Part shown: one piece after another, positions 2,568 through 42,077 of the stretch
How positions within the stretch are numbered: the stretch's first letter is position 1
How the letters are laid out: every line of letters begins with the position of its first letter
Assembly (NCBI GenBank): GCA_900016875.1
Contig: FCNR01000011.1
Coordinates: forward strand, 1-44,313
Source of the DNA: Eubacteriaceae bacterium CHKCI004
GTDB taxonomy: Bacteria > Bacillota > Clostridia > Lachnospirales > Lachnospiraceae
Reading direction: 5' to 3'
Length of the DNA stretch: 44,313 nucleotides
Made by a program: the position numbers and the translations under genes
The notes under the pieces: generated by a model
What the model was told of the DNA's origin: nothing
Databases searched by the model: none
The model's input: only the letters and a program-made list of their open reading frames with translations

Positions 2568-3038
2568 ATGTACGACAGCTTTTCCAGAATGGGACGCTGG
2601 GTCTCGATCTTTGACAGACTGATGAAAATGTACTATGACCATGGTCTGTCTGATTATGAAATCGGATGGGGACAGCAGTTTTATGTGGAATATTTGTATG
2701 AGCATCCTGGCGCTTCGCCTCAGGAGATGGTGGAGAGGTTCCGGGTGGATAAAGCAACACTTACAAAGACCATCCGGAAGCTTACCAAAGTGGGATATAT
2801 CCATGTGACCGGCGATGAGAAAGATCGCCGGATGAAGCACCTTTATCTGACAGAGAAGGCGATTCCGGCGGCAAGGCAGATTAAAAAAATTCATGCGGAA
2901 TTTTATCAGACGCTCCGGGAGGGAATCTCACCCGAAGCGCTGTCTTTGACAGAAGAGACTCTGCAGAAAATGACAGATAATATTAATCAGAAAGTATGGC
3001 ACAGAATGGAGGCACAACATGGACAATCTGAAAAATGA
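2568..3038 (+). CDS. MarR-family transcriptional regulator
   Basis: This 156-residue protein has the usual MarR length. The winged helix lies at about residues 40-105: HPGASPQEMVERFRVDKATL is the helix-turn-helix, followed by TKTIRKLTKVGYI, and DEKDRRMKHLYLT is the wing with its conserved D-x-R. N- and C-terminal helices would form the dimer interface. AGGAGG precedes the ATG. It overlaps the following MFS gene by 20 bases, so the two form an operon, the usual repressor/efflux-pump pairing. It probably represses its own promoter and is released by a small molecule. The gene is intact although the pump is broken. Confidence 0.9.
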   Translation: MYDSFSRMGRWVSIFDRLMKMYYDHGLSDYEIGWGQQFYVEYLYEHPGASPQEMVERFRVDKATLTKTIRKLTKVGYIHVTGDEKDRRMKHLYLTEKAIPAARQIKKIHAEFYQTLREGISPEALSLTEETLQKMTDNINQKVWHRMEAQHGQSEK

Positions 3039-4096
3039 AGAAAAACAGCATGCGGGAAAGCGGACAGGAAGCGTACTGCTCAATGACAGAAAGCGCGGCC
3101 TGATTTTTATATGTCTGATTGTATCAGGTACCGCATCGTCGACGCTGTCAACAGCCATGACCACGGCGCTGCCGAATCTGGTGGAATATTTTGGCGTGAA
3201 CACTTCCAGCGGACAGTGGGTGACCAGCGGATATTCCCTGGCCATGGGAATGGTGCTGCCGCTGACGGCGTTCTTGATCACACGTTTTCCCACAAAGAAG
3301 CTGTATCTGAGCGGGATTGCATGCTTTATTCTGGGGCTGCTGCTGAGCATTTTTACAACTAACTTTGGGGTGATGATGACGGGACGGATCCTGCAGGCCT
3401 GCGGCAACGGCGTTCTGATGTCGGCGGCGCAGGTGGTGATTCTTACCATCTATCCGGTGGAAAAACGGGGGACTATGATGGGAACCTACGGACTTTGCAC
3501 CACGGCCGCTCCCATCGTGGCGCCGACCATCGCGGGACTGCTCATCGACGCCTTTGGGTGGAAGTCCATTTTTTATGTAGTACTGGTTATCATGGCGGCT
3601 TCCCTGCTGCTGTCCTGCTTTGTATTTGAGGACGTGCTGGAACTGCAGGATAAGAAATTTGATGTGATTTCCTTTGTGGAGAGCATTGTGGCCTTTGGAG
3701 GCATTACCCTCGGTATTGGAAATATCAGCAGTTTCGGTCTGGTGAGCCTGGAGGCAGGCGCACCTCTGGGTGGCGGCGGCCTTGAATGTGATTCGGAACA
3801 TTTCCATAGGAAGCCTCATGATGCCGCTATTAACCTGGGGAACCAGTAATGTGGTGCCGCAGAAGGTGGCAGATGCCTCATCTCTGCTGACCTCCTTCCG
3901 GACCATAGCCGGCTCCATCGGATCAGCCGTTTTTGTGGGAATCATGACGGTGGTCAGCGCATCCTCCGCACAGACTTATGGGGATGCAGCCATGATGCAC
4001 GGCATGAACGTCGCCTTTTTCTGGATGGCAGCAGGAGCGCTGGTGCTGCTGCTGATCTCTGTTTTGACGACCGGAGGCTCCAGAGTGTCTTCCTGA
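3019..4096 (+). pseudogene. DHA2-type MFS drug exporter, internal deletion and frameshift
   Basis: From the ATG at 3019, about 249 residues read as the first half of a 14-helix EmrB/QacA-type exporter: a cytoplasmic start, SGQWVTSGYSLAMGMVLPLT, the RILQACGNGVLMS region, and TYGLCTTAAPIVAPTIAGLL. At about 3761-3770 the frame changes. The C-terminal segment LNVIRNISIGSLMMPLLTWG to the stop at 4096 continues in another frame. Members are usually 450-480 residues long; the two halves sum to about 355, so roughly 100-120 residues are missing. The old frame stops at 3849. The junction bases CCTCTGG read as P-L in both flanking frames, consistent with deletion between short repeats. The pump is unlikely to be functional. 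Confidence 0.85.
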
Positions 4097-4178
4097 AAAC
4101 GAAAAGCACGGTGACGGGGGAACAGATATACGGAAGTAAATAACGGAGTATAAAGTGAGAGGTACTAACGGCCACACC

Positions 4179-4212
4179 AAAGGAGACTTCTGTTTGAGGC
4201 CTCCTTTTTTTA
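4179..4212 (+). terminator. Intrinsic terminator after the MFS remnant
   Basis: AAAGGAG and CTCCTTTTTTT pair around a loop of about 15 bases and are followed by a T-run. It ends the MarR/MFS transcript. Confidence 0.75.
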
Positions 4213-4260
4213 TTATATAAAAGAAGAAAAATATTTTTTAATAAAATAAGGGAGGCAACA

Positions 4261-5313
4261 ATGAAGAAAATGTTATCGTTGGTTTTATCTCTCACCATTG
4301 CCGCGGCCTGCATGGGCTGTGCGGCCGCCGGGGAGAATACACAGAACAGCATGTCAGAAACAGGTGCGGCGGAGCAGACAACGCAGGAAATGATTTCCGC
4401 GGAAAATGAGACCGTGCAGACCACAGTAACCCGGGCTGCAATTCCCGAAACCCTCGCGCAGGTTCCGGAAGGATACGAGTTACCTGCCGACCAGCAGGGC
4501 TCCATTGAAAGGCTGGATTATACCACCTACGAATCCATGGGCTACGAGGAACAGTCCGAGGAGCTTGAGAAGACCGCGTATGTATACCTGCCTTACGAAT
4601 ATAACGAGGAAGAGCAATACAATGTTTTCTATCTGATGCACGGCGGGTGGAGCAATGAGACCACCATGATGGGAACCGACCGGTCGCCGTCAACGCTGAA
4701 GAACATCGTGGATCACGCCATCGAGGATGGCCGGATGCAGCCGATGATTATCGTCTGTCCGACTTACAATAATACAAGTCCGGATGACAGCTCCGATTAC
4801 GGTCTGGCGCTGCAGCTGACGGATAATTATCATAATGAGCTGATGAATGATCTGATTCCGGCGGTGGAGAGTCGTTACAGTACCTTTGCCGATGATACAA
4901 CACCGGAGGCGCTCACGGCTTCCAGAGACCACAGGGCATTTGGCGGATTCTCTATGGGCTCCGTGACCACCTGGCACACCTTCCAGTACTGCCTGGATTA
5001 TTTCCGGTATTTCATGCCCATGAGCGGAAGTCTCACTACGGACGGAGATGTCATGAACGAGATGGTGGAAGATGCCGGATACGGTCCGGAAGACTTTTTT
5101 ATCTTCGCCATGTCAGGCACAGATGATTTCGCCTACTCTTCCTTTACCCGGCAGATTGAAGCCATGGCGGCGGTTCCGGGCGGAAACTTTGTGGAAGCGG
5201 ACAATGAGCAGGAAGGTAATCTCGCCTACAGAGTCCAGGAAGGCGGAACACATTCCGGAGAATACGCGTCCCAGTACATTTACAATGGCCTCTGCTGGTT
5301 CTGGAACGAGTAG
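4261..5313 (+). CDS. Lipoprotein carbohydrate-esterase-like hydrolase (CE1/feruloyl-esterase fold)
   Basis: 350 residues. GGGAGG precedes the ATG. A lipoprotein signal ends in ACMGC, so Cys20 would be lipidated and the enzyme tethered outside the membrane. A Thr/Glu-rich linker to about residue 60 leads into an alpha/beta hydrolase. YVYLPYEYNEEEQYNVFYLM and HGG form the N-terminal strand and oxyanion region. GGFSMGS is the nucleophile elbow with its catalytic Ser, SGTDDFAY is a candidate Asp, and GGTHSGEY holds the probable catalytic His. The architecture matches CE1-type esterases (feruloyl or acetyl-xylan esterases) found as XynZ-like modules. The natural ester is unknown. It is the first of three lipoprotein hydrolases in the window. 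The gene appears intact. Confidence 0.85.
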   Translation: MKKMLSLVLSLTIAAACMGCAAAGENTQNSMSETGAAEQTTQEMISAENETVQTTVTRAAIPETLAQVPEGYELPADQQGSIERLDYTTYESMGYEEQSEELEKTAYVYLPYEYNEEEQYNVFYLMHGGWSNETTMMGTDRSPSTLKNIVDHAIEDGRMQPMIIVCPTYNNTSPDDSSDYGLALQLTDNYHNELMNDLIPAVESRYSTFADDTTPEALTASRDHRAFGGFSMGSVTTWHTFQYCLDYFRYFMPMSGSLTTDGDVMNEMVEDAGYGPEDFFIFAMSGTDDFAYSSFTRQIEAMAAVPGGNFVEADNEQEGNLAYRVQEGGTHSGEYASQYIYNGLCWFWNE

Positions 5314-5346
5314 CAGAATAGATAACAGAGAAGGGAGACATACAAA

Positions 5347-5820
5347 ATGAAACAGAACAAAAACAGACCTTACGTGGTCTGCCACATTTTAAGTGCGCTG
5401 GACGGCAATATCAGCGGTTCTTATTTTATGATGCCGGAACTGCAGCCGGTGCAGGAGGCCTTTGCCCGCATCCGCGCCGACTATCAGTGCGACGCGTATC
5501 TGGCAGGAGCGGTGACGGCGGCGTCCATCTATGCCGATGGATTCCTGGACGAGGAAGGGATAGAAGAGCTGGAAGCAGCGCGGATTTACCCTCGGGAGAC
5601 CTACGTGGCGGACCCTCAGGCGCAGCATTATGCGGTCATCATTGATACGGAGGGCAGCCTCCGATGGAACAAAGGGCACATAAAAAGAGCAGGTATGCCG
5701 GAGCTGCACATGATCGAGGTCCTGACAGAAAATGTACCGGCAGCCTTTTCTCTGCTGGACGTCCGGAAGGTGGAAGGCGACGGAATCTGGCTGCGGTATG
5801 TGCCGAAGAATCGGAGATAA
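5347..5820 (+). pseudogene. RibD-C/dihydrofolate-reductase-like protein with in-frame internal deletion
   Basis: 157 residues from an ATG behind AAGGGAG, 33 bases after the esterase. RPYVVCHILSALDGNISGSY is the characteristic first strand and substrate loop of RibD C-terminal-domain reductases, and YLAGAVTAASIYADGF is the next element. After HMIEVLTENV the sequence jumps directly to PAAFSLLDVRKVEGDGIWLR, which is the end of these proteins. Family members are usually about 230-240 residues, so about 80 central residues are missing, including the Gly-rich NADPH segment and the LIDELSL strand. The frame is kept, so a protein may be made but is probably inactive. Codon use resembles the neighbours, which suggests a recent loss. 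Confidence 0.75.
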
Positions 5821-5910
5821 TAAGGAATAAAAATCTATTCATGTATCGAATCGGAATGGTGATGTTTTCAGCAATATTTTTTAGTTTAATCAGATGCCCC
5901 CTCAGGAACT

Positions 5911-5937
5911 AAAAATCCTGGTGGGATTTTCTTTTTA
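5911..5937 (+). terminator. Terminator after the esterase/RibD-like unit
   Basis: AAAATCC and GGATTTT pair around TGGTG, followed by CTTTTTAT. It lies about 90 bases after the last gene. Confidence 0.65.
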
Positions 5938-5948
5938 TCTGAACAGCA

Positions 5949-5980
5949 AAAAAGCTCTTCCGTTATTGGAAGAGCTTTTT
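5949..5980 (-). terminator. tRNA-Leu terminator (symmetrical)
   Basis: AAAAAGCTCTTCC and its complement TGGAAGAGCTTTTT form a strong hairpin with T-runs on both strands. It sits directly after the 3-prime end of the tRNA and could also stop plus-strand transcripts. Confidence 0.85.
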
Positions 5981-5981
5981 A

Positions 5982-6064
5982 TGCCGATGGCCGGACTCGA
6001 ACCGGCACGGATTATCTCCGCTTGATTTTGAGTCAAGTGCGTCTGCCAATTCCGCCACATCGGC
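5982..6064 (-). tRNA. tRNA-Leu (anticodon CAA)
   Basis: On the minus strand the acceptor arms GCCGATG and CATCGGC pair, with discriminator A. The anticodon stem CTTGA/TCAAG encloses the loop CTCAAAA, giving anticodon CAA, which reads the UUG codon. A long variable arm (class II) and the T-arm GGTTCGAGTCC are visible. CCA is not encoded. The gene is single and complete. Confidence 0.95.
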
Positions 6065-6167
6065 TTATATTCTGTTCTGCATGTGAGAAGCAGAGAGAAT
6101 ACTTTAAACAAAAACATAGAAAAATATCACGCAGCTGTAACTGATGATTTTGCACATCAACTCTGAT

Positions 6168-6196
6168 ATACTATCATATCATAAAAATTCTGTCAA
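6168..6196 (-). promoter_or_regulatory. Promoter of tRNA-Leu
   Basis: On the minus strand TTGACA (6196-6191) and TAGTAT (6173-6168) are 17 bases apart. This would start transcription about 95 bases before the tRNA. The rest of 6065-6295 is AT-rich and holds nothing else I recognise. Confidence 0.6.
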
Positions 6197-6295
6197 TGAT
6201 TTTTTTGCTTTTACTTTCCTTTTTTATATCCTGTAAAAAATGCATTTTTTTGCCTGTTTATGAGAACAGAGATTTTTTCGCCTGTTTTTCCGCTG

Positions 6296-7699
6296 TTACC
6301 GGTGCAGCGTCAGCCGGAAAGGGGAAGATTCCTGTTTTTTGAGCGGAAAGGTTAAATGAACGGTAAACGCGCCCTGGCAGCGTTCCATATCCAGTCTGCC
6401 CCCAAGGAGATCTACCATTTTCTGAACATTTTTCAGGCCGATATTGTTGCTGTCCGCATCAGAATATTCTTTTCGTACAGTATTGCCGACAGAAATGTGC
6501 ACCTGTTCGGGAATGGTGCGGATGACACAAAAGATCCTGACAGGACTTTCCTTGTCGCCGTATTTGAGGATGTTGGAAAACAGATTGGTAAAAATCCTTT
6601 TCAGCATCAGGCTGTCGCTGGACAGTTCGGCAGATTCTTCCGGAAAATGGCAGTCCGTCCGGAAGCCGGCAAGTCGGATGTATTCGCAGTTTTCCCGGAG
6701 ATATTGCAGCAGAGTGTCGGTGGTAAGAACAGAAAACTCCGGGATTTCTTTTTCCTCGGAAACAAGCGCATATTCAAACATGCGGTCTGTGAGCTCCTGG
6801 ATATCTCCGGTTTTTTTCAGGCACCGGCGCAGATATTCTTCATGGATTTCCGGATTGCGGCGAAGCTGCATGACTTCCAGATAGCCCCGGAGAATCGTAA
6901 GAGGGGTACGCAGATCGTGGGAGAGAGCGGTGATCAGATCCTGATTGGCTTTCCGGCTCTCCTGTTCCTGTATGATGTTTTCACGCAGCGTCATCCGGAG
7001 ATGATCGAGTTCTCTGCCAAGAATGCCGATTTCATCGTTGCCCTGTACACTGATGGGATGCTCCAGATCGCCGGTGGACATACGGAGAATATCTTTTTCC
7101 ATGGAAATGATGGATTTCATTTTTCTGTTGATAAAGAACAGAAGCGCTGACAGAAACAGTACCACGCAGAAGATAAAGCAGAAAATGTAATAATAAAAAA
7201 TAAATTCTGCGTTGTGGTACAGATATACTTGAACGCTGTAATAACCGTTTTTAAAATGAAGGGAAAGTTCGACATATTCTTCCCCTATGTTATCAGTAAA
7301 ATTGGCAGACAGATTATAAAAGAAACTGCTGTGTTTATAAAAGTATTCCGGAAATCTTCCGGTGCGGTAGATACCATCGTCGGCGCCATAAATATACATG
7401 CCGGTATATTCGTCGCACAGATTGAAAAAGGGCGCAAATTCTCTCTGCTGTTTCAGATTATTTTCGGAGTCAGGCACAGAATATTCTTTTGCATGGTCAT
7501 AAAGATTCTGAAAAAAATCATCATGGGGTTCCGGAATAGATACTATTCCCATATGTCTTGCGGCATATGCGGCTTCCCATTTGTTCTGCCAGAGAAATTG
7601 AAATAATGAGAAACAGAGAACGCCGGTAAGAAGCAGGAGAAGGAAAAACTGATGACGGATTTTCAGGGATGAAATCCAGATGCCAATGTTTTTAATCAC
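6296..7699 (-). CDS. Sensor histidine kinase (VanS-like)
   Basis: 467 residues. I chose the GTG at 7699-7697 because a GGGAAAGGGG site precedes it and it overlaps the regulator gene by 8 bases. Residues about 11-31 are the first membrane helix (HQFFLLLLLTGVLCFSLF). An extracellular sensor of about 130 residues follows, then a second helix (FIFYYYIFCFIFCVVLFLSA), a HAMP domain, and HisKA with the phospho-accepting His in ALSHDLRTPLTILRGY. The ATPase domain has the N-box FTNLFSNILKYGD and the Gly-containing NNIGLKNVQKMVDLLGG. It would phosphorylate the adjacent OmpR-type regulator. The ligand is not evident, and a role in envelope stress or cell-wall sensing is only suggested by the YfhO neighbour. 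Confidence 0.9.
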   Translation of the reverse strand: MIKNIGIWISSLKIRHQFFLLLLLTGVLCFSLFQFLWQNKWEAAYAARHMGIVSIPEPHDDFFQNLYDHAKEYSVPDSENNLKQQREFAPFFNLCDEYTGMYIYGADDGIYRTGRFPEYFYKHSSFFYNLSANFTDNIGEEYVELSLHFKNGYYSVQVYLYHNAEFIFYYYIFCFIFCVVLFLSALLFFINRKMKSIISMEKDILRMSTGDLEHPISVQGNDEIGILGRELDHLRMTLRENIIQEQESRKANQDLITALSHDLRTPLTILRGYLEVMQLRRNPEIHEEYLRRCLKKTGDIQELTDRMFEYALVSEEKEIPEFSVLTTDTLLQYLRENCEYIRLAGFRTDCHFPEESAELSSDSLMLKRIFTNLFSNILKYGDKESPVRIFCVIRTIPEQVHISVGNTVRKEYSDADSNNIGLKNVQKMVDLLGGRLDMERCQGAFTVHLTFPLKKQESSPFRLTLHR

Positions 7700-8393
7700 A
7701 GCGATACCCCTTTCCCCAGATGGTTTTGATAAGAACCGGATTTTTTGGATCTTTTTCAATTTTTTTCCGCAGATTTCTGATATGTACCATGACCGTGTTA
7801 TTGGCGCCGTAATAATACGTCTCTTTCCACACAGTTTCATAGAGGTGTTCCGCGGAAAAAATCTGATGTCTGTGTGTGACAAAAAGAAGGAGAATAGCGT
7901 ATTCGGTATCAGTGAGGATCAGAGGATCTCCGTCCGCAAATACTTCTTGTTCTTCTTCATGAATTTCCAGATGGTGATATCTGAGAATTTTTTTGGATGA
8001 TGATGGATGTTCCTTACCTTTATAGACCAGATAGCGCCGGATTAAAGCCTTGCTGCGGCTGATTAATTCGTTATAGGAAAAGGGTTTGGCCAGATAATCG
8101 TCGCCTCCGCTCGAAAATCCCAGTGTTTTATCACTGTCCTGTGTTCGGGCGCTCAAAAAGAGCACTGGCGCGTTGCAGTTTTTCCGTATGGAGACACAGG
8201 TCTGGTATCCGTTTTTCCCCGGCATCATAATATCAAGAATAATCAGGTCAAAATCCTTTTCCATGGTGAGCTGCAGAGCTGTCTCCCCGTCTGCGGCCTC
8301 CTCAATCAAAAATCCCTCTCCTTCCAGGAGGACATGAATGATTTCTCTGATTTCAGGATTGTCGTCTACAATTAAAATTCGTGAGTGTTCCAT
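7692..8393 (-). CDS. OmpR-family response regulator (VanR-like)
   Basis: 233 residues starting MEHSRILIVDDNPEI, with AAAGGAG 11 bases before the ATG. The receiver domain shows the acidic DD pair, the phospho-acceptor Asp in LIILDIMMPGKNGY, the conserved LFLSART and the DDYLAKPF lysine. The C-terminal winged helix (residues about 135-230) ends in VMVHIRNLRKKIE and IKTIWGKGYRCD, typical of OmpR/PhoB. It is the first gene of a two-gene operon with the kinase and is divergent from the YfhO gene. The TTAAGAA repeats upstream are its likely targets, so it probably activates both directions. Confidence 0.93.
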   Translation of the reverse strand: MEHSRILIVDDNPEIREIIHVLLEGEGFLIEEAADGETALQLTMEKDFDLIILDIMMPGKNGYQTCVSIRKNCNAPVLFLSARTQDSDKTLGFSSGGDDYLAKPFSYNELISRSKALIRRYLVYKGKEHPSSSKKILRYHHLEIHEEEQEVFADGDPLILTDTEYAILLLFVTHRHQIFSAEHLYETVWKETYYYGANNTVMVHIRNLRKKIEKDPKNPVLIKTIWGKGYRCD

Positions 8394-8430
8394 CGTATTT
8401 CGTTCTCCTTTCCAGACCATTTTCCTGTCT

Positions 8431-8518: not shown

Positions 8519-8621
8519 TAGTCCCAAAATGGAAAGCTATGTGCGGACGCGTTTTTATCAGGAGAATGCATCAGTAAAATGCATACGGCCGCGCAGGATA
8601 GCTGCTGGAGGTGTAAAACAG

Positions 8622-20067: not shown

Positions 20068-20652
20068 TTGGAAGAACGGCGGGTGACGGTGGAGGGCGTG
20101 ACCAGGCCGGTGCCCGAGCCATTTCTTGTCATTGCGACGCAGAATCCTCAGGGAAGCGCCGGAACCCAGCTTTTGCCTGAGGCTCAGGTGGACCGGTTCA
20201 TGGTGAGTCTCTCTGTGGGATACCCGGATTATGACAGTGAGCTTGCCATGGTTCTCGGCGTCCGGGGAAAAAGCCGTGTGGAAGATATCGTGAGCGTGTT
20301 TCAGGGAGATACGCTCCGGGACATACAAAATGCCGTGGATCAGGTGCATCTGAAGGAAAATGTGGGGGACTATATTGTACGTCTCGTCCGTGCAACGAGA
20401 GAACACCCGGAGCTTAGCTGTGGCGGCAGTCCCCGGGCGTCTATCGCGCTGGTGCGTATGTCCAGGGCGGCTGCATTCCTTAATGGAAGGGATTATGTGA
20501 TTCCTTCGGATGTGGAAGAGCAGTTTCCATACATTATCCGGCACAGGATTACGCTGGATTCTGCCGCCCGGATGAACGGCAGGACGAAGGATGCGGTCAT
20601 TGGTGAGATTCTGCAGCAGACAAGGCGTCCTTCGATGGGGATCCGGCGATGA
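20068..20652 (+). pseudogene. MoxR-type AAA+ ATPase missing its N-terminal nucleotide-binding half
   Basis: 194 residues from the TTG at 20068, with AGAAGGGGG upstream. It begins at EERRVTVEGVTRPVPEPFLV, which is mid-protein in MoxR ATPases. ATQNPQGSAGTQLLPEAQVD is the sensor-1/arginine-finger region, and the lid domain follows with GGSPRASIALVRMSRAAAF. The usual length is about 310-320 residues; about 125 N-terminal residues with Walker A and Walker B are absent here, so it cannot bind ATP normally. Its stop overlaps the DUF58 start. MoxR, DUF58 and a transglutaminase form a well-known operon, and this copy has lost the front of its first gene. Confidence 0.88.
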
Positions 20653-21416
20653 AAAAGGCGGGATTTCTTCTGGTGACTGCCGCCACATGGTATCTTGCCG
20701 CCATGTACCGTTCGATTCCGCTGATGGCGCTTACTATAACGGAAGTGATACTTTTTCTGGGAATGTGGGTGCAGTCCTTTTATTTTAGATTTCGCGTCCG
20801 GGCCGGTTTTGGGCGGCAGCTGACAGTTTGCCGGAAGGGAGAAGAACCATCCTGTTCCATTTGGATAGAAAGCAAGGGCATCCTACCGGTGGGCGCTGTC
20901 AGTCTGCGGATGAAAGCATTTTATCCCGAAGGGAGCCGGAAAATCCGGATTAATCTTCTCGGAGGGACAAGGCGGCGAACCAGCCGGAAAGTGCGGCTTT
21001 CCATGGAGAAGCAGCAATGCGGCTTATTTTCCGTCCGTATGGAGAAAATATATGTGTATGATTATCTGACTTTGTTTCAGCGGAAACGAAAAGAAAAAGA
21101 GGAAATGCAGATCGCCATATTGCCGCGGGGGTATCCTCTGCGTATTGGCGAAGAGTCAGGATTTCGTCAGGAAATGCAGCAGTCCGTTCGGGATGCTGAT
21201 TTTCTGCCTGGAGCCAATATGGATGAGATCCGGCAGCTGCGGCAGAAAGAGGAGTGTGATATGCTGTTCCTTTCACTCTATCAGTGGGAAGATGAATTGG
21301 AAGAAGCCGTGCCTGATTACACGGAAGAGTTCTGTTTTGACGGAAACCTCAGGTTTTCCCGTTCCGGAAGGACGATTTGGCAATTTACGACAGAGTATTA
21401 TCAAAAGGAGGTATGA
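20649..21416 (+). pseudogene. DUF58 protein with internal deletion
   Basis: 255 residues from an ATG overlapping the MoxR stop. Two N-terminal helices and the beta-rich segment to about residue 175 are normal for DUF58. After DFLPGANMDEIRQLR the expected signature (the Y/R-x-G-D...HWK...A/S stretch that defines DUF58) is missing, and the sequence jumps to QKEECDMLFLSLYQW near the usual C-terminus. Family members have about 380-430 residues, so over 100 are probably lost, with the frame kept. The junction bases CGGCAGCTGCGGCAG (21231-21245) contain a direct CGGCAG repeat, suggestive of a short-repeat deletion. Confidence 0.72.
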
Positions 21417-21420
21417 TCCG

Positions 21421-23508
21421 GTGAAAATATATGGAAGAAAGAGGGGGAGCAATGTGGCGGCTGTCCCTTTTTCGCTGTTCTTTTTGCTAAGCGGTATATA
21501 CGGTGTTTATCTCATGTTTCTTGCAGTGCCGCAGCTGCGGTGGAACCGTGCTGCGGTATTCTTGCTGGCAGCGCTGCCAGCAATGCTGTTATGGTATCTC
21601 GATGGAAAAAAAGGAACAAATAGAAGGGGGCTTTTGCCGGCTGGGATAATCGTAGTGCCGATACTGATAGGAGCAGTTTTATTTTTTCACCCTTCCGTAA
21701 TCGGAGAAATCATCTCGGCCGCCTTGCAGACAGCTGGATTTGCAGAAGCGGGACAGACGGATGTGACCCGGGGCGTATTGATGATTCTATGGGCGGTTTC
21801 TTATCTGCTTTTTTTGTGGGAGTTTGTGTTTCGTGTACATTGGTTTCTGTATATTTTTATGAGCGTCCTTCTCCTGGCGGCCCCATTGATGGGAATCGTT
21901 CCGGGAAGCGGCGCTGTGCTCTGTATCGGAATTTTTCAGATTACTTTCTGGGCAGTACACACCCTGATGAAAAAGAGCCGGCAGGGAAAAAAGAGAAGAA
22001 AAGAAAATATGCAGTCTGCCATGAAAATCGGCGCCATGGTCATGGCGGCGGTGGCTGCGATTTTCTCAGTCTCGCTTTTTGTGGTGAGCCAAAGTCCGGA
22101 GTGGTTTTACGGTACGGCCTATGGGGCGGAAGGTTTTGTACAACAGACGGCAAAGCGTCTGAGCGGCTGGACCAATCAGCCGGAAGGAGGGACGATTAAC
22201 CGGGGAAATCTTTATCCTGCGGGTGTGGACCAGATTGAGATATGGGTCAGCGACGTACCGGGAGAAACTATCTATTTGAAAGGATTCAGCGGAGGCGATT
22301 ACGCAGGCGGTGAATGGGAACCGGCTATGGATGAGGAGCTTTTTATGCAGATGAATGAAAATAGCCTTCACTGGAGGTATTGGGAGGACAGCATCGCCAG
22401 CATGTTTTCTAACCTGTATTTTGAGATGAATCAAAATACAGTTCGTGATGAGCCGGTGGAGGAGCATATGCTGATGATACGCAATCTGGAAGATATTGAG
22501 GTTCAGCCAGTGGAGTATGAACCGTATTACAGTATACAAAATCGCTGGGGACGGTTTGGATATACTTTTCGTTTTTATGAGCGCAGTGAGATGGATATTG
22601 ACTGGGACAATATGAATCCGACCATGGAATCCGGAGCTTCCTGGTATTACGACATACAGCAGGCGTACCAAAGAGAGACGCAGACTGCTTACACGGCAGT
22701 GCCGGAGAATGTGGTTCCGCGTCTTGTGAGATTGTGCGCTGCCAATCCACAGGAAGATCTAAAACATATTACGGCGTTTATCCTGTATACCCTGCAGAAT
22801 ATGGCGACTTATTCCACTACGCCTGGCGTTACCCCGCTCAATGCGGATCCCGTGGAATATTTTTTGTTTGAGAGCGGGGAAGGCTATTGTCAGCATTTTG
22901 CATCGGCGGCAGTTCTGATGTACAGGCTCTATGGGATTCCTGCCCGGTATGTGACGGGATATGCGGTGAAACCATCGGATTTTGAAGAGGTAACGGATGG
23001 CGGTTACCGGGCGGTTCTCACTGACGCTTCCGCCCACGCCTGGCCGGAGATATTTATCGAAGATCTGGGCTGGACGCCGGTGGAAGTGACGCCTGCCGGA
23101 GAAGGGTATGATGCATTTGAGCCGCAGATGGATGAAGAAACTCTTCTGGATATCCAGGAACAACAGCAATGGAATTTGAGTGATCTTGTCGAGGATGCGC
23201 AGCCGCAGGAAGAACAGTCTCAGGAGGAATCGGGAGGAAATGTTTCCGTGGAGCCTGCGGCCGACTATCACGAGGCGTCCCCGGGATGGATTGCCTTGTT
23301 TCTCCTGCTTTTTGCCGGGACGCTGTATTACATTTACAGAGAAATGCAGAGGGCGGCGGACAGGCGTATGGATGTGCGGCAGGCGTTCGGAAGGCATGAG
23401 GCAGACGAAAAAGAAACGGTGTTTGCGAGGGAAATGTATAGGAGGACGTCAGAATATCTCTATGAGCATCTCAACGGAATAAGAAAAATATGGTTTAAAA
23501 TATATTAA
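21421..23508 (+). CDS. Membrane transglutaminase-like protein (TgpA-type)
   Basis: 695 residues from the GTG at 21421, four bases after the DUF58 stop and behind AAAAGGAGG. Six or so N-terminal helices (to about residue 220) are followed by an extracytoplasmic domain. The transglutaminase-like core has ESGEGYCQHFASAAVLMYRL (catalytic Cys), then RYVTGYAV, SAHAWPEIFIEDLGWTPVEV (catalytic His and Asp) and TPAGEG. One more helix (WIALFLLLFAGTLYYIY) precedes a short cytoplasmic tail. The tail, ending HLNGIRKIWFKIY, is shorter than I would expect, so a deletion there is possible. It works with MoxR and DUF58 in an envelope function that is not well defined; both partners are damaged here. Confidence 0.85.
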   Translation: MKIYGRKRGSNVAAVPFSLFFLLSGIYGVYLMFLAVPQLRWNRAAVFLLAALPAMLLWYLDGKKGTNRRGLLPAGIIVVPILIGAVLFFHPSVIGEIISAALQTAGFAEAGQTDVTRGVLMILWAVSYLLFLWEFVFRVHWFLYIFMSVLLLAAPLMGIVPGSGAVLCIGIFQITFWAVHTLMKKSRQGKKRRKENMQSAMKIGAMVMAAVAAIFSVSLFVVSQSPEWFYGTAYGAEGFVQQTAKRLSGWTNQPEGGTINRGNLYPAGVDQIEIWVSDVPGETIYLKGFSGGDYAGGEWEPAMDEELFMQMNENSLHWRYWEDSIASMFSNLYFEMNQNTVRDEPVEEHMLMIRNLEDIEVQPVEYEPYYSIQNRWGRFGYTFRFYERSEMDIDWDNMNPTMESGASWYYDIQQAYQRETQTAYTAVPENVVPRLVRLCAANPQEDLKHITAFILYTLQNMATYSTTPGVTPLNADPVEYFLFESGEGYCQHFASAAVLMYRLYGIPARYVTGYAVKPSDFEEVTDGGYRAVLTDASAHAWPEIFIEDLGWTPVEVTPAGEGYDAFEPQMDEETLLDIQEQQQWNLSDLVEDAQPQEEQSQEESGGNVSVEPAADYHEASPGWIALFLLLFAGTLYYIYREMQRAADRRMDVRQAFGRHEADEKETVFAREMYRRTSEYLYEHLNGIRKIWFKIY

Positions 23509-32653: not shown

Positions 32654-33667
32654 TTGACAGTAAAAAAGAGGAAATGGTGGAAAGTCGCAGTTGTGATTTT
32701 GATCGCGGTTATTCTGGTGGTGTTCTTTCGTGACAGCTTTGCGGAAGGATTGCGGGAGATCCTGAAGGTTCCCGCCGAGACGGTGGTGTTCCTTCTCTGC
32801 CTGTCCATGGGATATTTTCTGGCGGAGGGAGGCATCATTGCCGTCCTTGCCAGATCGTACACAAATACCGTATCGTACCGAAGCGGCGTTGCCTGCGCTC
32901 TGTACTGCAGTTTCTTCCGGCTTATTACATTCGGTAGCGGCTCGGGCATTGCGGAAGTATATTATCTCAACCGGCAGGGCATGAAGGCGGCGGAAGCCAC
33001 TGGCATGAGTCTGGTGCAGTATCTGATACAGAAGATTACCATTTGTCTCATGGGCGCCGTCAGTTTCTTTTTCTGTTTCCGCTATGTGAGCCAGTATATC
33101 GGCGATTATCAGGGATATATTGCCCTCGCTGTGCTGATTACTATGGTGATTGGAGCGGGAATCCTCATGATCACTGTTTTTGAGAAGGGCAAGGATTTGT
33201 TATTTCATTATCTGAGCAAAGCGACCGCCGGCAAAGAGAGCTGGAATGACAAAGTAAAGAAGGCGGAAGGACAGGCGGATATCCTGCAGGACGGCGCGAA
33301 AAAGCTGTATCACAAAAAACATTGCCTCGCCTTAGCTTTTGTTCTGGACCTTGCCAAATATTTCTGCTGGTTCCTGACTCCCTACGTGTTGTACGGGGAT
33401 GAGGAACGGCTGACGCTCCTCGTTTCTCTGGTACTCATGGCTCTGGCGACCATGGTGGCCGGCGTGATCCCAACACCCAGCGGTTATGGTTCTCTCGATG
33501 CCATGATTATTCTTTTATTTTATCCGCTGCTGGGAGAAGCAAAAGCAGTTTCCCTGGTCATTTTGTACCGGGTCGTTGTCTCCCTGTTCCCGTTCCTCAT
33601 GGGGATGCTGGTGGCGGCGCGTCCGCTTCGGGAGCAGCGAGAGCTGGAAGCGGGACGAAAGAATTAA
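32654..33667 (+). CDS. YbhN/LPG-synthase-TM-like integral membrane protein
   Basis: 337 residues from the TTG at 32654 with AAGGTGA upstream. About eight membrane helices occur, with VYYLNRQGMKAAEATG and AGVIPTPSGYGSLDAMIILL in the positions of the conserved family motifs. It matches the flippase-like domain shared by MprF N-termini and YbhN (UPF0104), proteins that move lipids or lipid-linked products across the membrane. No synthase domain is attached, so a stand-alone transporter is likelier than lysyl-PG synthesis. Its last codons overlap the remnant XRE gene on the other strand, so its C-terminus may have been altered by that deletion. Confidence 0.8.
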   Translation: MTVKKRKWWKVAVVILIAVILVVFFRDSFAEGLREILKVPAETVVFLLCLSMGYFLAEGGIIAVLARSYTNTVSYRSGVACALYCSFFRLITFGSGSGIAEVYYLNRQGMKAAEATGMSLVQYLIQKITICLMGAVSFFFCFRYVSQYIGDYQGYIALAVLITMVIGAGILMITVFEKGKDLLFHYLSKATAGKESWNDKVKKAEGQADILQDGAKKLYHKKHCLALAFVLDLAKYFCWFLTPYVLYGDEERLTLLVSLVLMALATMVAGVIPTPSGYGSLDAMIILLFYPLLGEAKAVSLVILYRVVVSLFPFLMGMLVAARPLREQRELEAGRKN

Positions 33668-33763
33668 TTGGTCAAGAGATATGTTGAATACCGAACTCAG
33701 CATCAGCGCACTCTGGATATCCATATGATTGCGGTACTTTTTTATCTGTGTGCCAATCTCCAA
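33661..33763 (-). pseudogene. XRE-family regulator remnant
   Basis: Read from the TTG at 33763-33761 behind AAAGGAG, the frame gives MEIGTQIKKYR, which is the usual start of XRE helix-turn-helix regulators in clostridia. It then jumps to DIQSALMLSSVFNISLDQLI, which is the end of the same domain. The recognition helices (about 40-45 residues) and everything after DQLI are missing. The frame runs on antisense to the neighbouring gene. The divergent promoter region remains. Confidence 0.65.
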
Positions 33764-34272
33764 CGTTCTTTCTCCTTTCGTTTGTTGTCTGTGTTGTCTG
33801 ATTCGTTCTCTTGAACCAACGAAATCTTAACACTCAACAGACACGGTTTCTACCAAAAGAGTTTGACTTCGGCCAAAATTCCTCTGTCAAAGCCTTTTGA
33901 CAAGGCGTTTTAGCCCTGTTTCGAACAGAATTTATGCACAAATAACGTCTTTTCTGTCCATAATCTTTCCTATCAGTTTATTATAAATCCTCTCAACTTT
34001 CAACAGAAGCACATAATCCAAAACATGTCATTTACTGTCGCATAAGTTTTACTTATGAAATGCATCGAAAAAGGAAATTGCTCTTTTCATCCTGAAACGA
34101 TTACAATTACAGATGGCGCTGAGCTGAAAGGGTAAAATAGTTTATCTTCGAGGTCTGTTGCAGGAAAAGTTAAAATGGTTCATTCTCAGATGACAGCTAC
34201 GAAAAAATAACAATCAGTCTGCCTTGAAAAATGATGGCAGACGGATAAAAGGCTCAAAAAGGTTTTCAGAAA
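33764..34272. promoter_or_regulatory. Intergenic region with a perfect palindrome
   Basis: A 509-base gap without genes. CATAAGT-TTT-ACTTATG (34042-34058) is a perfect 7-3-7 palindrome, a good operator candidate for the SDR/flavodoxin/LysR cluster downstream. AAAAAGG stands before the SDR start. I see no clear terminator. Confidence 0.45.
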
Positions 34273-34968
34273 ATGTATGGAAGAAAAGAGGTTATGAAAG
34301 TGAAAAAAGACGTTATGATCTTAACGGGAGCCGGGCAGATTGGCATGGCCATTGCCCGCCGCATGGGATATGGCAAAAAGATTGTGATCGGTGATAAGAA
34401 ACTGGAAAATGCACAGAAGATTGCGGAGATCATGAATAACGCGGGCTTCGACGCGGAAGCCGTGGAGATGGATCTGTCCTCCCGGGAATCCATCCGGAAT
34501 CTCATCGCCCGGGCCATGGAATACGGCGATATCTCCATGCTGGTCAACGCCGCCGGCGTATCTCCGAGCCAGGCGACTGCGGAAGAGCTTTTACAGCTTG
34601 ATATTCTGCAGCTGGAAAATATCCGTGACACCCTCCATGCCTACCAGATGGCAAAACGCTGTAATGAAAAGCGTGTTATGGCAGAGGCTGTTAAATGGGG
34701 GAAACGGAACGCAAGAATTAATTCCATCTCACCGGGGATTATCGTGACTCCGCTGGCAGTGGATGAATTAAACGGTCCGCGCGGTGATTTTTATAAAAAT
34801 ATGTTCGCCAACTGTCCGGCAGGCCGTCCTGGAACCGCCGATGAGGTAGCAAATGCGGCGGAGCTGCTGATGAGCGACAAAGGAGCTTTTATCACCGGAG
34901 CAGATTTCCTCATTGACGGCGGAGCTACCGCGTCTTATTTCTATGGGCCGCTAAAACCGGAGAAATAA
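34273..34968 (+). pseudogene. Short-chain dehydrogenase/reductase with in-frame internal deletion
   Basis: 231 residues from the ATG at 34273. The Rossmann start ILTGAGQIGMAIARRMGYG and the AAGVSPSQA strand are present. After SPSQAT the protein goes straight to AEELLQLDILQ and the helix with YQMAKRC (the YxxxK pair). ISPGIIVTPLA and the C-terminal FLIDGGATASYFYG are normal. Related proteins are about 280 residues and carry a catalytic-Ser segment of the form VVISSQSG between these points. Here about 50 residues, with that Ser, are missing. The frame is kept, but catalysis is unlikely. It heads a set with flavodoxin and LysR genes. Confidence 0.75.
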
Positions 34969-35036
34969 AAAACTTGCCAATTACTGAAAAGCAAAATAAA
35001 ATAGAAAAAAAGAATGAATAGAAAAGAGGAATAAAA

Positions 35037-35555: not shown

Positions 35556-35586
35556 GCGCTGCATATGCAGACAGGAGGTGGTCTCA

Positions 35587-36480: not shown

Positions 36481-36508
36481 AATGAAAGAGGAGGAGTGCG
36501 GGAAAACT

Positions 36509-37513
36509 ATGAAAATATTACATATAGGAAAAGCGGAGAACATGAAACGATATCGTCCGGATACGGACTTTGCCGGGACGGTGGAAGTGGCCGAGATGAC
36601 CATGGGACATACGGCGGAGGAATACGCGGCGGCCATGCCGGATGCCGAGGTTATCGTGGCGGACGCCATCGCCGACGTGCCGGGTGCGCTCATGGAGCGG
36701 CTGCCGGAGCTTAAGATGATTCATTCGGAGGGTGTGGCCTATAACCGCATTGATGTGGAGGCTGCCTCGGCGCGGAATATCGCCGTGTGCAACTGTGCCG
36801 GCATGAATGCTTCCGCTGTGGCAGAGCAGACGATTCTTCTCATGCAGGGCATGCTGAAAAATGTTATAGCTAATGACCGGGCCGTGCGGGAAGGCAGGCA
36901 GATTCTCGTAAAAGAGCAGTATATGGCGGAGGGCAGTCTCAGAGAACTGGCCGATTGTAAGGTAGGACTTGTGGGTTTTGGCGATATAGGCAAGAGTACC
37001 GCGCTGCTTCTGGCGGCCTACGGCGCGGAAGTGTATTATTATAAGCGCCATCGTCTGGAAGCGGAGGAAGAAATGAAATACCACGCTATGTACCTGCCGC
37101 TTTCTGATCTTCTTGAGCTCTGCGACATTATCAGTCTTCATCTGCCGGTCACAAAGGACACAGAAAAAATGTGCGGCCATATGTTTTTTGAGCAAATGAA
37201 ACCGGGTGCTTATTTTGTCAATACATCCCGGGGCGAGTTGGTGGATGATGAAGCGCTGGCGGAAGCCTTAAAGAGTGGGAAGCTTGCCATGGCTGGGCTT
37301 GACACTCTCGATCATGAACCGGTACAAAAAGATCATCCGCTGTTAAATCAACCGGCGGAAGTTGCTGAGAAGATCTTCTTCACTCCACATATCGGCGGTA
37401 TCACTGCATCCAGTTTCCGCCGGGGTTATGCTATGATCTGGGAGAATCTGGAGCGGCTCTCAAAAGGGGAAATGCTGCTTCGGGTGGTGAACCGTCCGAA
37501 AACACTGTTTTAA
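36509..37513 (+). CDS. D-isomer-specific 2-hydroxyacid dehydrogenase
   Basis: 334 residues from the ATG at 36509 behind GAGGAGG; an ATG at 36482 lacks a ribosome site. The NAD-binding fold has GLVGFGDIGKSTALLLAAYG. The catalytic residues are Arg in NTSRGELVDDEAL, Glu in LDTLDHEP and His in FTPHIGG. The N-terminal substrate domain has EGVAYNRIDVEAA and CNCAGMNASAVAEQTI. It reduces 2-oxoacids to D-2-hydroxyacids, or the reverse, with NAD(H). D-2-hydroxyacids are substrates of hydroxyacyl-CoA routes like that served by the activase at 23752, but a link is speculative. The gene is intact. Confidence 0.92.
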   Translation: MKILHIGKAENMKRYRPDTDFAGTVEVAEMTMGHTAEEYAAAMPDAEVIVADAIADVPGALMERLPELKMIHSEGVAYNRIDVEAASARNIAVCNCAGMNASAVAEQTILLMQGMLKNVIANDRAVREGRQILVKEQYMAEGSLRELADCKVGLVGFGDIGKSTALLLAAYGAEVYYYKRHRLEAEEEMKYHAMYLPLSDLLELCDIISLHLPVTKDTEKMCGHMFFEQMKPGAYFVNTSRGELVDDEALAEALKSGKLAMAGLDTLDHEPVQKDHPLLNQPAEVAEKIFFTPHIGGITASSFRRGYAMIWENLERLSKGEMLLRVVNRPKTLF

Positions 37514-37576
37514 ATTCCCGAAGAGAAAACGGCTGCAGAAATGAAAAACTGTGCTGCTAAAATAAAAAATAGACAT

Positions 37577-37646
37577 AAAAAGAACTATTTGCGTTTTTTA
37601 ATGAACACATTTTTGATCAGAGAACTGCGCCGATGGTTCTTTTTTG
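37577..37646 (+). terminator. Probable terminator with two alternative stems
   Basis: GTTCTTTTTT (37636-37645) can pair with AGAAC at 37621-37625 or, more extensively, with AAAAAGAAC at 37577-37585. ACTATTTGCGTTT (37584-37596), resembling the AKR motif, lies in the loop of the long form. The rest of 37514-37824 shows only a TATAAT-like box near 37784. Confidence 0.45.
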
Positions 37647-37824
37647 TTTTGCAGTACATTTAGATGAGAGTATAGGAAAGATGAGCGGATATGGGCGGAA
37701 AGTCATCAGATTCCGCACCGGCGAAAACCACAGGGTATATACTCACTCAACTTATTGTTTCTTCAATCCTGCAAGCAATGGTTTTATAATATTATCATAC
37801 AGGATCAGGAAAGGAGAAATTATC

Positions 37825-38970
37825 ATGCAGAAATTTGTTTATGAATATGCAACGAAGGTTTATTTTGGAGAGGGAGCTGCTAAAGAATACCTGGCGGCGG
37901 AAGTTTCCGGATACGGAAAAAATGTCATGCTTGCCTATGGCGGTGGTTCAGTAAAGAAAAATGGTATCTATGATGAGGTAAAAAAATATCTGGAAGACGC
38001 AGGAAAGACGGTGACGGACTTTTCCGGTATCATGTCCAATCCAACCTACGCAAAAGTGCAGGAAGGTGCTGCGCTTGCAAAAGAAAAAAATATTGATTTT
38101 ATTCTGGCTGTGGGAGGCGGTTCCGTTATCGATTGCTGTAAGATTATTGCAGCGCAGGCAAAGACGGAAAAAGATCTGTGGGATATGGAAATGAATCAGC
38201 ATCAGTTTCCGACAGAGGTGCTCCCTATGGGAGCCATTGTCACTGCTTCCGGCACCGGCGCAGAGATGAACGGCGGCGCGGTGATCACCAATGAGGAAAA
38301 AGTCATTAAAGCAGGTATGGCGGCAGCCGCTCCGAGATTTGCCATTCTGGACCCGGCATATACCATGTCCGTACCAAAAATGCAGGTGATTTCCGGGGCA
38401 TTTGATACGTTAAGCCATGCCATGGAGACCTATTTTGGCAATTCTGACGCGGATAATGTATCCGATGATGTGGCTCTGTCCATTATGCGAAATACGGTTG
38501 TCAACATGCGGCGTCTTCTTAAAGACATCAACGATATTCAGGCCAGGGGCAATCTCATGTGGGATTCCGCTATGGCAGAGAACGGTATTCTGAAAGTCGG
38601 CAGAGTGACAGATTTTCAGGCTCACCAGATCGAACATCAGCTGGGCGCTTACACGGACTGTAATCACGGACAGGGACTGGCGGTGATTCATCCGGCTTAC
38701 TATCGTCATATCGTAAAAGATGCGGAAGAGAAGTTCAGGAGATTTGGAAAAGAAGTTTTTGATGTGGATTCTGCCGCGGAGAGCGTGGAAGCGCTGGCAT
38801 CCTTTATCAAAGAATGTGGTCTGCCTTCAAAAATGAGCCAGCTGAAATCTAAAACGGAGATCACGCCGGAGCTTCTGAAAAATGTGGCGGATACATGCAA
38901 TATTATCCCGTGTAATCCACGGAAGCTTGAAAGAAACGAAATCTATGAGATTCTGATGGAGTGTATGTAA
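37825..38970 (+). CDS. Iron-containing alcohol dehydrogenase (butanol dehydrogenase-like)
   Basis: 381 residues from the ATG at 37825, with AAAGGAG upstream. An in-frame upstream ATG near 37633 reads through a terminator and is rejected. FVYEYATKVYFGEGA is the typical opening of BdhA/YqhD-like enzymes. AVGGGSVIDCCKIIAAQA is the nucleotide-binding GGGS loop. TASGTGAEMNGGAV and GAFDTLSHAMETYF follow; metal ligands are expected at the His of LSHAME and in HQIEHQLGAYTDCNHGQG. It reduces aldehydes to alcohols with NAD(P)H, which fits the surrounding AKRs as aldehyde disposal. The gene is intact. Confidence 0.93.
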   Translation: MQKFVYEYATKVYFGEGAAKEYLAAEVSGYGKNVMLAYGGGSVKKNGIYDEVKKYLEDAGKTVTDFSGIMSNPTYAKVQEGAALAKEKNIDFILAVGGGSVIDCCKIIAAQAKTEKDLWDMEMNQHQFPTEVLPMGAIVTASGTGAEMNGGAVITNEEKVIKAGMAAAAPRFAILDPAYTMSVPKMQVISGAFDTLSHAMETYFGNSDADNVSDDVALSIMRNTVVNMRRLLKDINDIQARGNLMWDSAMAENGILKVGRVTDFQAHQIEHQLGAYTDCNHGQGLAVIHPAYYRHIVKDAEEKFRRFGKEVFDVDSAAESVEALASFIKECGLPSKMSQLKSKTEITPELLKNVADTCNIIPCNPRKLERNEIYEILMECM

Positions 38971-39033
38971 TCGTTTCAGGATGAATCCATACGACAGATC
39001 AGCATAATATTTTCGACGAAGTGAGGTGGAAAA

Positions 39034-39987
39034 ATGAAGCGGGCGATATTGTTTTGTTTAATGGCAGGTACGCTGCTGCTGGCAGCGGGATGCGGCGGCA
39101 CAGCAGACAATAAACAAAATATGGCGGAAGAAACCAGCGGAGCCAGTACGGCGGCCGGAGACAGCAGCTCAACAGCGGACGAGATCCTTACTGCGCCGGA
39201 AAGTACATCGACCGGCTCTGCATCAGACAGTACCGCCGCTGTGGCGGAAAACAGCTCAGCTTCCGTGACGGAAGGTACTGAAGAATATCGGGGATTTCTC
39301 ATGGATAACGTGCTTCATTCGGAGAATGATGGCGATATTCATTATCATCTGTATGTGCCGGACAGCTATGACGGCAGTGAGCCGTACGCCATTTTCTTCA
39401 CGCTTCCCGGATATGAGGGACTGTATTTTCAGGGCGTGGGGGAGAATCTTTACAGCGAGAACTTTGCCTTCACGGCACAGGAATATAATCCGAAGATGAT
39501 CGTTGTGGCTCCACAGCTGTCGGATTGGGGAGAGACCTCCGCTGACCAGACCATTGCTCTGGTGGAATATTTCCTCGCCAATTATAATATTGATGAGGAT
39601 AAAGTGTATGCGGAAGGATTTTCCGGCGGAGGCGAGACCATGTCGCTGGTGATGGAAAAACGTCCGGAGCTTTTTACTGCCTATCTCCAATGCAGCTCGC
39701 AGTGGGACGGCGACTATGAACCGGTGGCTGAGAGCCGGACGCCGGTCTATCTGGCGGTGGGAGAGAGCGACGAGTATTACGGACAGGAGCCTTCCCGGGA
39801 AGCCTATGAGAATCTGTACAATCTGTACCGGGAGCAGGGACTTTCCGATGAGGAAATCGGGGAACTGCTGGTGCTGGACGTAAAAGACGCAGAATATTTT
39901 GAGAGCCGTGGCATGACCAATCAGCATGGAGGCGGCGGACTTTTCGCCGAGGACGAAGATATCATGGGATGGCTTTTTGGCAAATAG
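39034..39987 (+). CDS. Lipoprotein alpha/beta hydrolase (PHB-depolymerase/esterase type)
   Basis: 317 residues; GAGGTGG precedes the ATG. The signal ends in LLAAGC, so the Cys in CGGT is lipidated. A Ser/Thr/Ala-rich linker (about 30-85) leads to the hydrolase. YHLYVPDSYDGSEPYAIFFT and LPGYEG form the first strand and oxyanion loop. VYAEGFSGGGETMSLV has the nucleophile Ser, YLAVGESDEYYG the probable Asp, and MTNQHGGGG the His. It is a relative of the hydrolases at 4261 and 13632. It immediately precedes the AKR at 40170, as in the 12139/13632 pair but in the other order. The substrate is unknown; it would act outside the cell. Confidence 0.85.
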   Translation: MKRAILFCLMAGTLLLAAGCGGTADNKQNMAEETSGASTAAGDSSSTADEILTAPESTSTGSASDSTAAVAENSSASVTEGTEEYRGFLMDNVLHSENDGDIHYHLYVPDSYDGSEPYAIFFTLPGYEGLYFQGVGENLYSENFAFTAQEYNPKMIVVAPQLSDWGETSADQTIALVEYFLANYNIDEDKVYAEGFSGGGETMSLVMEKRPELFTAYLQCSSQWDGDYEPVAESRTPVYLAVGESDEYYGQEPSREAYENLYNLYREQGLSDEEIGELLVLDVKDAEYFESRGMTNQHGGGGLFAEDEDIMGWLFGK

Positions 39988-40169
39988 CACATCGACGCCG
40001 ACCGCCGGGAGGGACTTCAGGAGCCGGAAAAAGAAGAGAGAATCGGTACGAATTATATCCGCTGATGAAGTGTTTTTACAAGCTATATTTGATGCTGCAT
40101 TGTTTTCACCGGTTATATTTGCCGGCACATTTTTTCCAAATATAAGATAAAAAGCAGAGGAGAGTAATT

Positions 40170-41273
40170 ATGATCTACAAAAAGTTTCAGGACATCAGCC
40201 TTTCCCGGCTGGGCATGGGCAATATGCGGCTTCCGGTCAGCCGGGGGCGGATTGACGAAAAGAGAGCGCAGGAGATCATCGACTACGCCATGGCGCAGGG
40301 CGTCAATTATTATGATACTGCTTACGTGTATCATTCAGGCGAGTCAGAGTCTTTTCTGGGGAAGGCGTTGAAAAAATATCCCCGGGACAGCTATTATCTG
40401 GCGACGAAGTTTTATGTGATGGCGAACCCGGATATAGAAAAGGTTTTTGAGGAACAGCTGAGAAAACTGGACACAGACTATATTGATTTTTACCTGCTTC
40501 ACTGTGTCAATGAGGAGACCTGCGACGCGTATATGAAGCCGGAGAGAAAATATCTTGATTTTCTTATGGAACAGAAGGCGAAAGGAAGAATCCGCCATAT
40601 CGGTTTTTCGTCCCACGGAAAGCCGGCGACACTGGAGAAATTTTTAAACTGGAGCGACTGTTTTGAGTTTGTGCAGATTCAGCTCAATTATCTGGACTGG
40701 ACCATGCAGGACGCCAAAAAGCAGTATGAGATCATCACAGAGCACGGACTGCCTGTGTGGGTCATGGAGCCGGTGCGCGGCGGAAGACTGGTGTCTTTGG
40801 GCAGAAAATACGACGATATGCTGCAGGCGGCGAAACCGGAATGGTCAGTGCCGGCGTGGGCTTTTCACTGGCTTATGAGCCTTGACAATGTGACTATGAT
40901 TCTGAGCGGCATGAGTGATATGGATCAGATCAGAGATAATGTGGCGACATTTGCCAAAGAGGAACCGCTGACAAAAGAACAGGCGATGCTTCTCATGAAT
41001 ATTGCGGCCGGTTATCAGTCGAAGCTGGCTGTTCCGTGTACCGCCTGCCGCTACTGCTGCGACGGCTGTCCGGCGGGCATTGATATACCGGTCTGGATGA
41101 ATCTCTATAATGAGCTTTCCCTCACAAAAGACAGAAAACGCTGGGAGGAAGCCATGAAGGCGGAGAACGGTCCGGTGGAATGTATCGGATGCGGCCAGTG
41201 TACCAGTCATTGTCCGCAGAGTATCGATGTGCCGGGATATATGGGCAAGCTTCTTGACGCAGCGCCGCTATAA
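40170..41273 (+). CDS. Aldo/keto reductase with C-terminal 4Fe-4S ferredoxin domain (second copy)
   Basis: 367 residues; AGAGGAG lies before the ATG. It is a paralogue of the gene at 12139. LGMGNMRLPVSRG opens the barrel. NYYDTAYVYHSGESES has the catalytic Asp/Tyr, LATKFYV the Lys, and FYLLHCV the His. The Cys clusters CTACRYCCDGCPAGIDIP and CIGCGQCTSHCPQSIDVP bind iron-sulfur centres. It follows the lipoprotein hydrolase by 182 bases that hold nothing recognisable and precedes the secreted Ig/flavodoxin gene by 34, so co-transcription with the latter is likely. It probably reduces a carbonyl or enoate compound. Intact. Confidence 0.92.
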   Translation: MIYKKFQDISLSRLGMGNMRLPVSRGRIDEKRAQEIIDYAMAQGVNYYDTAYVYHSGESESFLGKALKKYPRDSYYLATKFYVMANPDIEKVFEEQLRKLDTDYIDFYLLHCVNEETCDAYMKPERKYLDFLMEQKAKGRIRHIGFSSHGKPATLEKFLNWSDCFEFVQIQLNYLDWTMQDAKKQYEIITEHGLPVWVMEPVRGGRLVSLGRKYDDMLQAAKPEWSVPAWAFHWLMSLDNVTMILSGMSDMDQIRDNVATFAKEEPLTKEQAMLLMNIAAGYQSKLAVPCTACRYCCDGCPAGIDIPVWMNLYNELSLTKDRKRWEEAMKAENGPVECIGCGQCTSHCPQSIDVPGYMGKLLDAAPL

Positions 41274-41307
41274 TACAGATAAAAATGTAAAGGAGGTACA
41301 TGGGAAC

Positions 41308-42077
41308 ATGAAAATGAGAAAAGCGGCGGGATTGCTGCTGACCTTTGCGCTGGTTTTTGCCGCAGCTTTCAGCGACATGTCCGCGGAAATACAGGCAGCG
41401 TCAAGAATCCGTCTGAACCGGAACACGCTGACCATGACAAAGGGCGAGCGCTTCCGTCTCAGGGTGCGGAACCTTCCAGAAGGAGCCAGAGTAACCTGGA
41501 AGTCTTCCAATCGCAGGCGAGCTACCGTATCACAAAATGGCGTAGTGCGGGCCAGAAAGGCAGGAACCGTCACCATACGAAGCCGGGTACGTTTTGAGAG
41601 AGACGGAGAGAGACGGACGAGGACCCTTACCTGCCGGGTGCGCATCAACAAAAAATCTGCCCGCACCAATTCGCTGGTCGTATATTTTTCCATGCCGGAA
41701 ACAGATGAGAACACTTCAAATGTGGATGCAGCCACCGGCGCAAGCATCACCACATCCGGCGGTAGAACCATGGGAAATGTACAATATGCGGCGTCAGTAA
41801 TCCGGGAGCGTACCCACTCGGATATTTTCCGCATTCGTCCGCAGGTGGCATATCCAACCAGACATACTCCGCTTGTCAATCAGGCGTCCAGAGAGCAGGA
41901 TCAGGATGCCCGCCCGGCCATCAGAAACCGGCTGAGAAATCTGTCTCAGTATGACACGATTTATGTATGCTATCCAATCTGGAACCAGGTGCGACCGTAT
42001 CCGACGACGGTCTGTCCATTTACCGGGATAATATCGGACGCAGTCAGTCAAGGATTATCAACTGGCTGAATCAGTAA
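41308..42077 (+). pseudogene. Secreted Ig-like (BIG2)/flavodoxin protein with deletion and frameshift
   Basis: From the ATG at 41308, with AAAGGAGG upstream, a signal peptide (GLLLTFALVFAAAFSDMSAE) is followed by a BIG2 domain (SRIRLNRNTLTMTKGERFRL to RVRI). A flavodoxin-like domain then follows: NSLVVYFSMPETDENTSN, MGNVQYAASVIRERTHSDIF, SQYDTIYVCYPIW. Just after, near 41985, the frame changes. The annotated frame ends at 42069. In another frame, ATVSDDGLSIYRDNIGRSQS then RIINWLNQ and a stop at 42077 form the true C-terminus. The deleted part (about 45-55 residues) includes the second flavin loop. The bases GAACCAGG fit both flanks in their different frames. An extracytoplasmic flavodoxin is unusual; this copy is probably dead. 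Confidence 0.8.

Follow-up and report, generated by a model that had tools for sequence, protein, structure and literature searches.

Bacterial gene breakage by clean deletion is already known, and published cases give an idea of what recent gene loss looks like. In Salmonella, 346 of 378 pseudogenes carried just one inactivating mutation, and the commonest class among these (141/346) was a deletion that took 20% of the frame or less (PMC2916853). In Streptococcus agalactiae, gene disruptions in the ST261 sublineage were ascribed to deletions in 76 cases, to insertions in 21 and to replacements in 19, and 136 of 193 indels of more than 4 nt were placed between repeats, with a median repeat of 8 nt (PMC3637634). 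A search of the literature on Anaerobutyricum pseudogenes returned nothing relevant.

We have analysed a stretch of 44,313 nt (the window; contig C41 of genome G000, positions 1-44313) in which an initial annotation had reported at least seven genes with blocks missing, seen as something apart from ordinary decay, which was expected to leave scattered stops. That expectation is contradicted by the part of the Salmonella data cited above (PMC2916853). We consider it very likely that the cut genes of the window are young pseudogenes, that is, the products of ordinary recent gene breakage by clean, RecA-independent block deletion in dispensable genes.

Results

Window and genomes compared

The window genome comprises 3.99 Mb in 86 contigs and is 99.98% complete. 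Contig C83 of G009, a genome of the same genus, is reverse-colinear with the window (29.3 kb aligned, 76.8% identity), and this reference is ∼20-30% diverged from the window genome. C83 carries, in colinear order, long forms of the MFS pump, MoxR, DUF58 and transglutaminase genes, and long forms of the last three are also present in G022. A long SDR gene lies on contig C20 of G009, and longer homologues were found for the RibD-like and flavodoxin genes; synteny is shown for none of these three. The window segments 33618-35587 and 37498-42128, which hold the SDR and flavodoxin genes, are absent from C83 at that place, and on this alignment both genes sit in variable DNA.

The contig end is occupied by a SpaA-type surface protein gene (1-2152, minus strand), copies of which, 94-95% identical, lie on contigs C58 (1-2000) and C14 (1315-3312); the repeat is probably where the assembly broke off. 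Positions 24213-28145 are 97.6% identical to contig C312 within G014, a genome of another species in the same genus, and C312 is probably a stray contig of the window's species in that metagenome bin. Contig C8 of the window genome encodes an Abi_2 protein and a TOTE conflict system primase-helicase (L116 3585-4574, 11167-14163), with transposases nearby.

Adjacent cuts in a single operon

One group of losses was found in a single operon, in which each of three consecutive genes is cut:
20068..20652, plus strand: MoxR AAA+ ATPase, 366 nt lost in frame directly after the start (AAA_3 profile and alignments)
20649..21416, plus strand: DUF58 protein, 270 nt lost in frame at 21242-21247 (alignment with G009 and G022)
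21415..23508 (listed frame 21145-23508), plus strand: transglutaminase membrane protein, C-terminal tail without 153 nt at ∼23390 (tail kept in G009 and G022)

The MoxR gap falls at ∼20054-20085 and measures 352 nt by plain gap counting between blastn anchors, the register of the junction being set by a weak 58-nt alignment (64%). The AAA_3 profile is matched at positions 86-131 of 131 in the window and at 1-131 in G009, and the deletion thus takes the first, N-terminal two thirds of the domain. The DUF58 gap comes to 309 nt when counted in the same way; the G009 form itself has only a sub-threshold DUF58 match (E = 0.0034). The transglutaminase gene, which adjoins DUF58, is a further cut gene beyond the seven originally named. 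A second MoxR-DUF58-transglutaminase operon is intact on contig C20 of the window genome (311, 385 and 789 aa), and because of this paralogous copy the broken operon is plausibly dispensable.

Losses in four other genes

Alignment to longer relatives showed missing blocks in six of the seven genes named initially, namely MoxR and DUF58 together with the following four:
3019..3849, plus strand: MFS efflux pump (EmrB-like), left piece (TIGR00711 matched at 6-208 of 485)
3770..4096, plus strand: MFS pump, right piece, in a different frame (blastn and tblastn against G009)
5347..5820, plus strand: RibD-like reductase, in-frame loss of ∼90 aa at ∼5735 (alignment with L206 and L207)
34273..34968, plus strand: SDR oxidoreductase (PRK06940-like), 165 nt lost in frame at 34575-34582 (NF005395 matched in two stretches)
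41227..42077, plus strand: Ig-domain flavodoxin, ∼45 aa lost at ∼41982 (Pfam; alignment with five homologues)

In the MFS gene, 368 nt are absent in comparison with C83 of G009, with the junction at ∼3759-3778, and the reading frame is lost beyond it. The longer RibD-like homologues, L206 (from G026) and L207 (from G009), are RibD_C proteins by Pfam, and the window remnant has no Pfam match of its own. The full-length SDR protein of G009 has 277 aa and contains an SSQSG stretch, missing from the window protein, which we take to be the place of the family's catalytic serine. The Flavodoxin_4 match of the Ig-flavodoxin ends at profile position 89 of 155, and the C-terminus resumes in another frame (41982-42077).

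The seventh gene found no support as a loss:
33602..33826, minus strand: possible XRE-type regulator fragment (translation only)

By eye, we presume this fragment to be a helix-turn-helix (XRE-type) regulator; neither Pfam nor a sequence search of the PDB lent support to a helix-turn-helix, and no relative was present among the loci fetched for comparison. A candidate further loss in YfhO, which at 9185-9223 is 153 nt shorter than in G009, was set aside, its polarity being doubtful and the extra G009 stretch being lysine- and arginine-rich; the stretch may be an insertion in G009. The confirmed losses are therefore seven: MFS, RibD-like, MoxR, DUF58, transglutaminase, SDR and flavodoxin.

The remnants are probably young, and most are in frame

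The remaining codons had been described as normal, and this holds for the MFS, MoxR and SDR remnants, in which 0.66-0.78 of the differences from G009 fall at third positions, as against 0.69-0.81 in four intact genes; the DUF58 remnant gave 0.50 on a short stretch of 75 sites. Given the mostly normal codon pattern of the remnants, we place the deaths of the genes probably late in the divergence from G009. Judging from the missing domains and the disrupted frames, the cut genes would have lost their function.

The frame was kept in five of the seven confirmed losses, compared with one third expected (p = 0.045), the MFS and flavodoxin losses being out of frame. The excess may reflect selection against frame-shifted products, repeats in codon register, or the greater ease with which open frames are noticed, and it fits pure neutral decay less well. 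It is also what one would expect if the short forms were functional, selected variants and not dead genes, and the open frames of the remnants, together with the purine-rich stretch and TTG start that MoxR keeps ahead of its remaining codons, point the same way. However, two thirds of the MoxR AAA_3 domain are gone, the SDR lacks its SSQSG stretch, two of the losses are out of frame, and the relatives examined carry long forms. We consider functional short forms very improbable, and loss of function in young pseudogenes remains our reading of these genes.

Direct repeats at some junctions

The initial annotation had suggested recent deletions between short repeats. The recent date agrees with the codon data, and traces of repeats were seen at some junctions. 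In the G009 reference, the MFS block has the direct repeat CTCTGG at both ends (p = 0.010), the SDR junction shows a 19-nt imperfect direct repeat (p = 0.001) and the MoxR junction a weak 11-nt imperfect one (p = 0.061), while no direct repeat was seen in the reference at the DUF58 (p = 0.37) or transglutaminase (p = 0.17) junctions. Over these five junctions, scored at a fixed register in the reference and leaving out RibD and flavodoxin, whose homologues are too distant, Fisher's combined p was 0.0002; it becomes 0.0004 on inclusion of YfhO, for which the repeat alone gives p = 0.45. A comparable loss, of 194 nt at an 8-nt repeat, was found in a PNP_UDP_1 phosphorylase gene on control contig C15 (L162 17399-17409, corresponding to 77399-77409 of C15 in the window genome), with flanks 96 and 99% identical to G009.

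Repeats at junctions are a known signature of RecA-independent deletion, as the S. agalactiae indel data illustrate (PMC3637634). We propose that single blocks of ∼130-370 nt were cut from dispensable genes, the rest of each gene being left untouched, without the need for RecA: direct repeats, short and in many cases imperfect, would have annealed to each other or caused replication to slip. The molecular route would be illegitimate recombination or replication slippage, and relaxed selection on the dispensable genes would account for the losses.

The losses are clustered in the window

We compared the window with three contigs of the same genome, C15, C7 and C12, that are colinear with G009. 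These controls contained four coding losses of at least 150 nt in 140.6 kb aligned (158, 194, 480 and 653 nt), counted where they touch a partly kept reading frame and left unpolarised; the 480-nt loss overlaps just 67 nt of a frame. The window has five such losses in 29.3 kb with the uncertain YfhO included, giving a rate ratio of 6.0 (p = 0.010), or 4.8 without YfhO (p = 0.034), p values that are optimistic since the window was picked because of its losses. The losses are locally clustered. The idea that a rate like that of the window would hold genome-wide does not survive this comparison: the density outside the window is ∼1/5 to 1/6 in the three control contigs, and we rejected a genome-wide deletion process on this ground, the gap comparison with G009 spanning ∼170 kb out of 3.99 Mb.

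A second measure, which needs no reference genome, pointed in the same direction. Truncated Pfam matches were seen in 4 of 31 window proteins with matches (39 distinct proteins scanned) and in 1 of 33 control proteins with matches (40 of 99 listed proteins scanned; Fisher p = 0.16). The lone truncated control protein is an IS66 transposase, the cut-offs differed between scans, and contig C5 is the dnaA-gyrase region, which is rich in essential genes; this excess in the window is suggestive only. In the reverse direction, three losses are listed for G009, one of 163 nt and two larger ones, of 4519 and 11315 nt, that reflect differences in gene content. Beside the full-length SDR gene on C20 of G009, a damaged Fe-ADH gene (L130 9120-9725, 201 aa) lacks ∼58 aa internally, and the window copy (37633-38970) is full length; such losses therefore occur in the relative too. 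The clustering and the in-frame excess could together be read as a local deletion hot spot that favours in-frame losses and whose shortened proteins are kept rather than decaying, which we regard as scarcely likely.

Are the deletions real?

The alternative that an assembly or library artefact dropped internal segments, the cell having full-length genes, would mean that the public genome of the species is wrong at several genes. The fragmentation into 86 contigs, with a SpaA-like repeat that opens both C41 and C58 and sits at 1315-3312 of C14, is as seen in a short-read assembly and gives this alternative some room. Against it, a search of the assembly with the MoxR block and ∼168 of the ∼275 nt of the DUF58 block recovered only a MoxR paralogue and no copy of the lost MoxR block. 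The junction repeats, at 6-19 nt and mostly imperfect, would be too short for k-mer collapse. Further, the control contigs have four coding losses in a length nearly fivefold that in which the window has five, and three of the losses share a single operon, of which the genome keeps an intact paralogue. Clean junctions alone are no sign of an artefact, and we judge one improbable here.

Independent sequences over the junctions were also sought. As a second strain, the near-identical C312 of G014 could not serve as a witness, since its match (24213-28145) spans no junction. Family searches of 397 genomes each, drawn from a larger group, in which no more than two candidates were scored in any genome (E up to 1e-80), returned no same-species contig over the junctions. 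No witness contig was found among 61 genomes for 18900-24500, 14 for 2400-12000 and three for 30000-44313, and exact-junction scans of viral contigs gave none.

Discussion

A series of truncated genes as striking as this can be no more than what is expected of recent gene loss in a bacterium, and the seven confirmed cases have counterparts in known systems. Like those of the window, Salmonella pseudogenes are young and marked by a single inactivating mutation, with deletions commonest; the losses there are mostly of at most 20% of the frame, whereas MoxR, the RibD-like gene and DUF58 have lost more (PMC2916853). In E. coli, illegitimate recombination has likewise been given as the source of small segments that vary, in a within-species comparison of microdiversity in which broken genes are not the focus (PMC2884548). 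A further case is the reductive evolution of S. agalactiae ST260-261, where gene disruption is led by deletions and repeats are found at indels. That work, however, covers many strains genome-wide, with an early phase of mostly small indels, while our comparison has a single genome for each species and is of a single region, from which larger blocks have been lost (PMC3637634).
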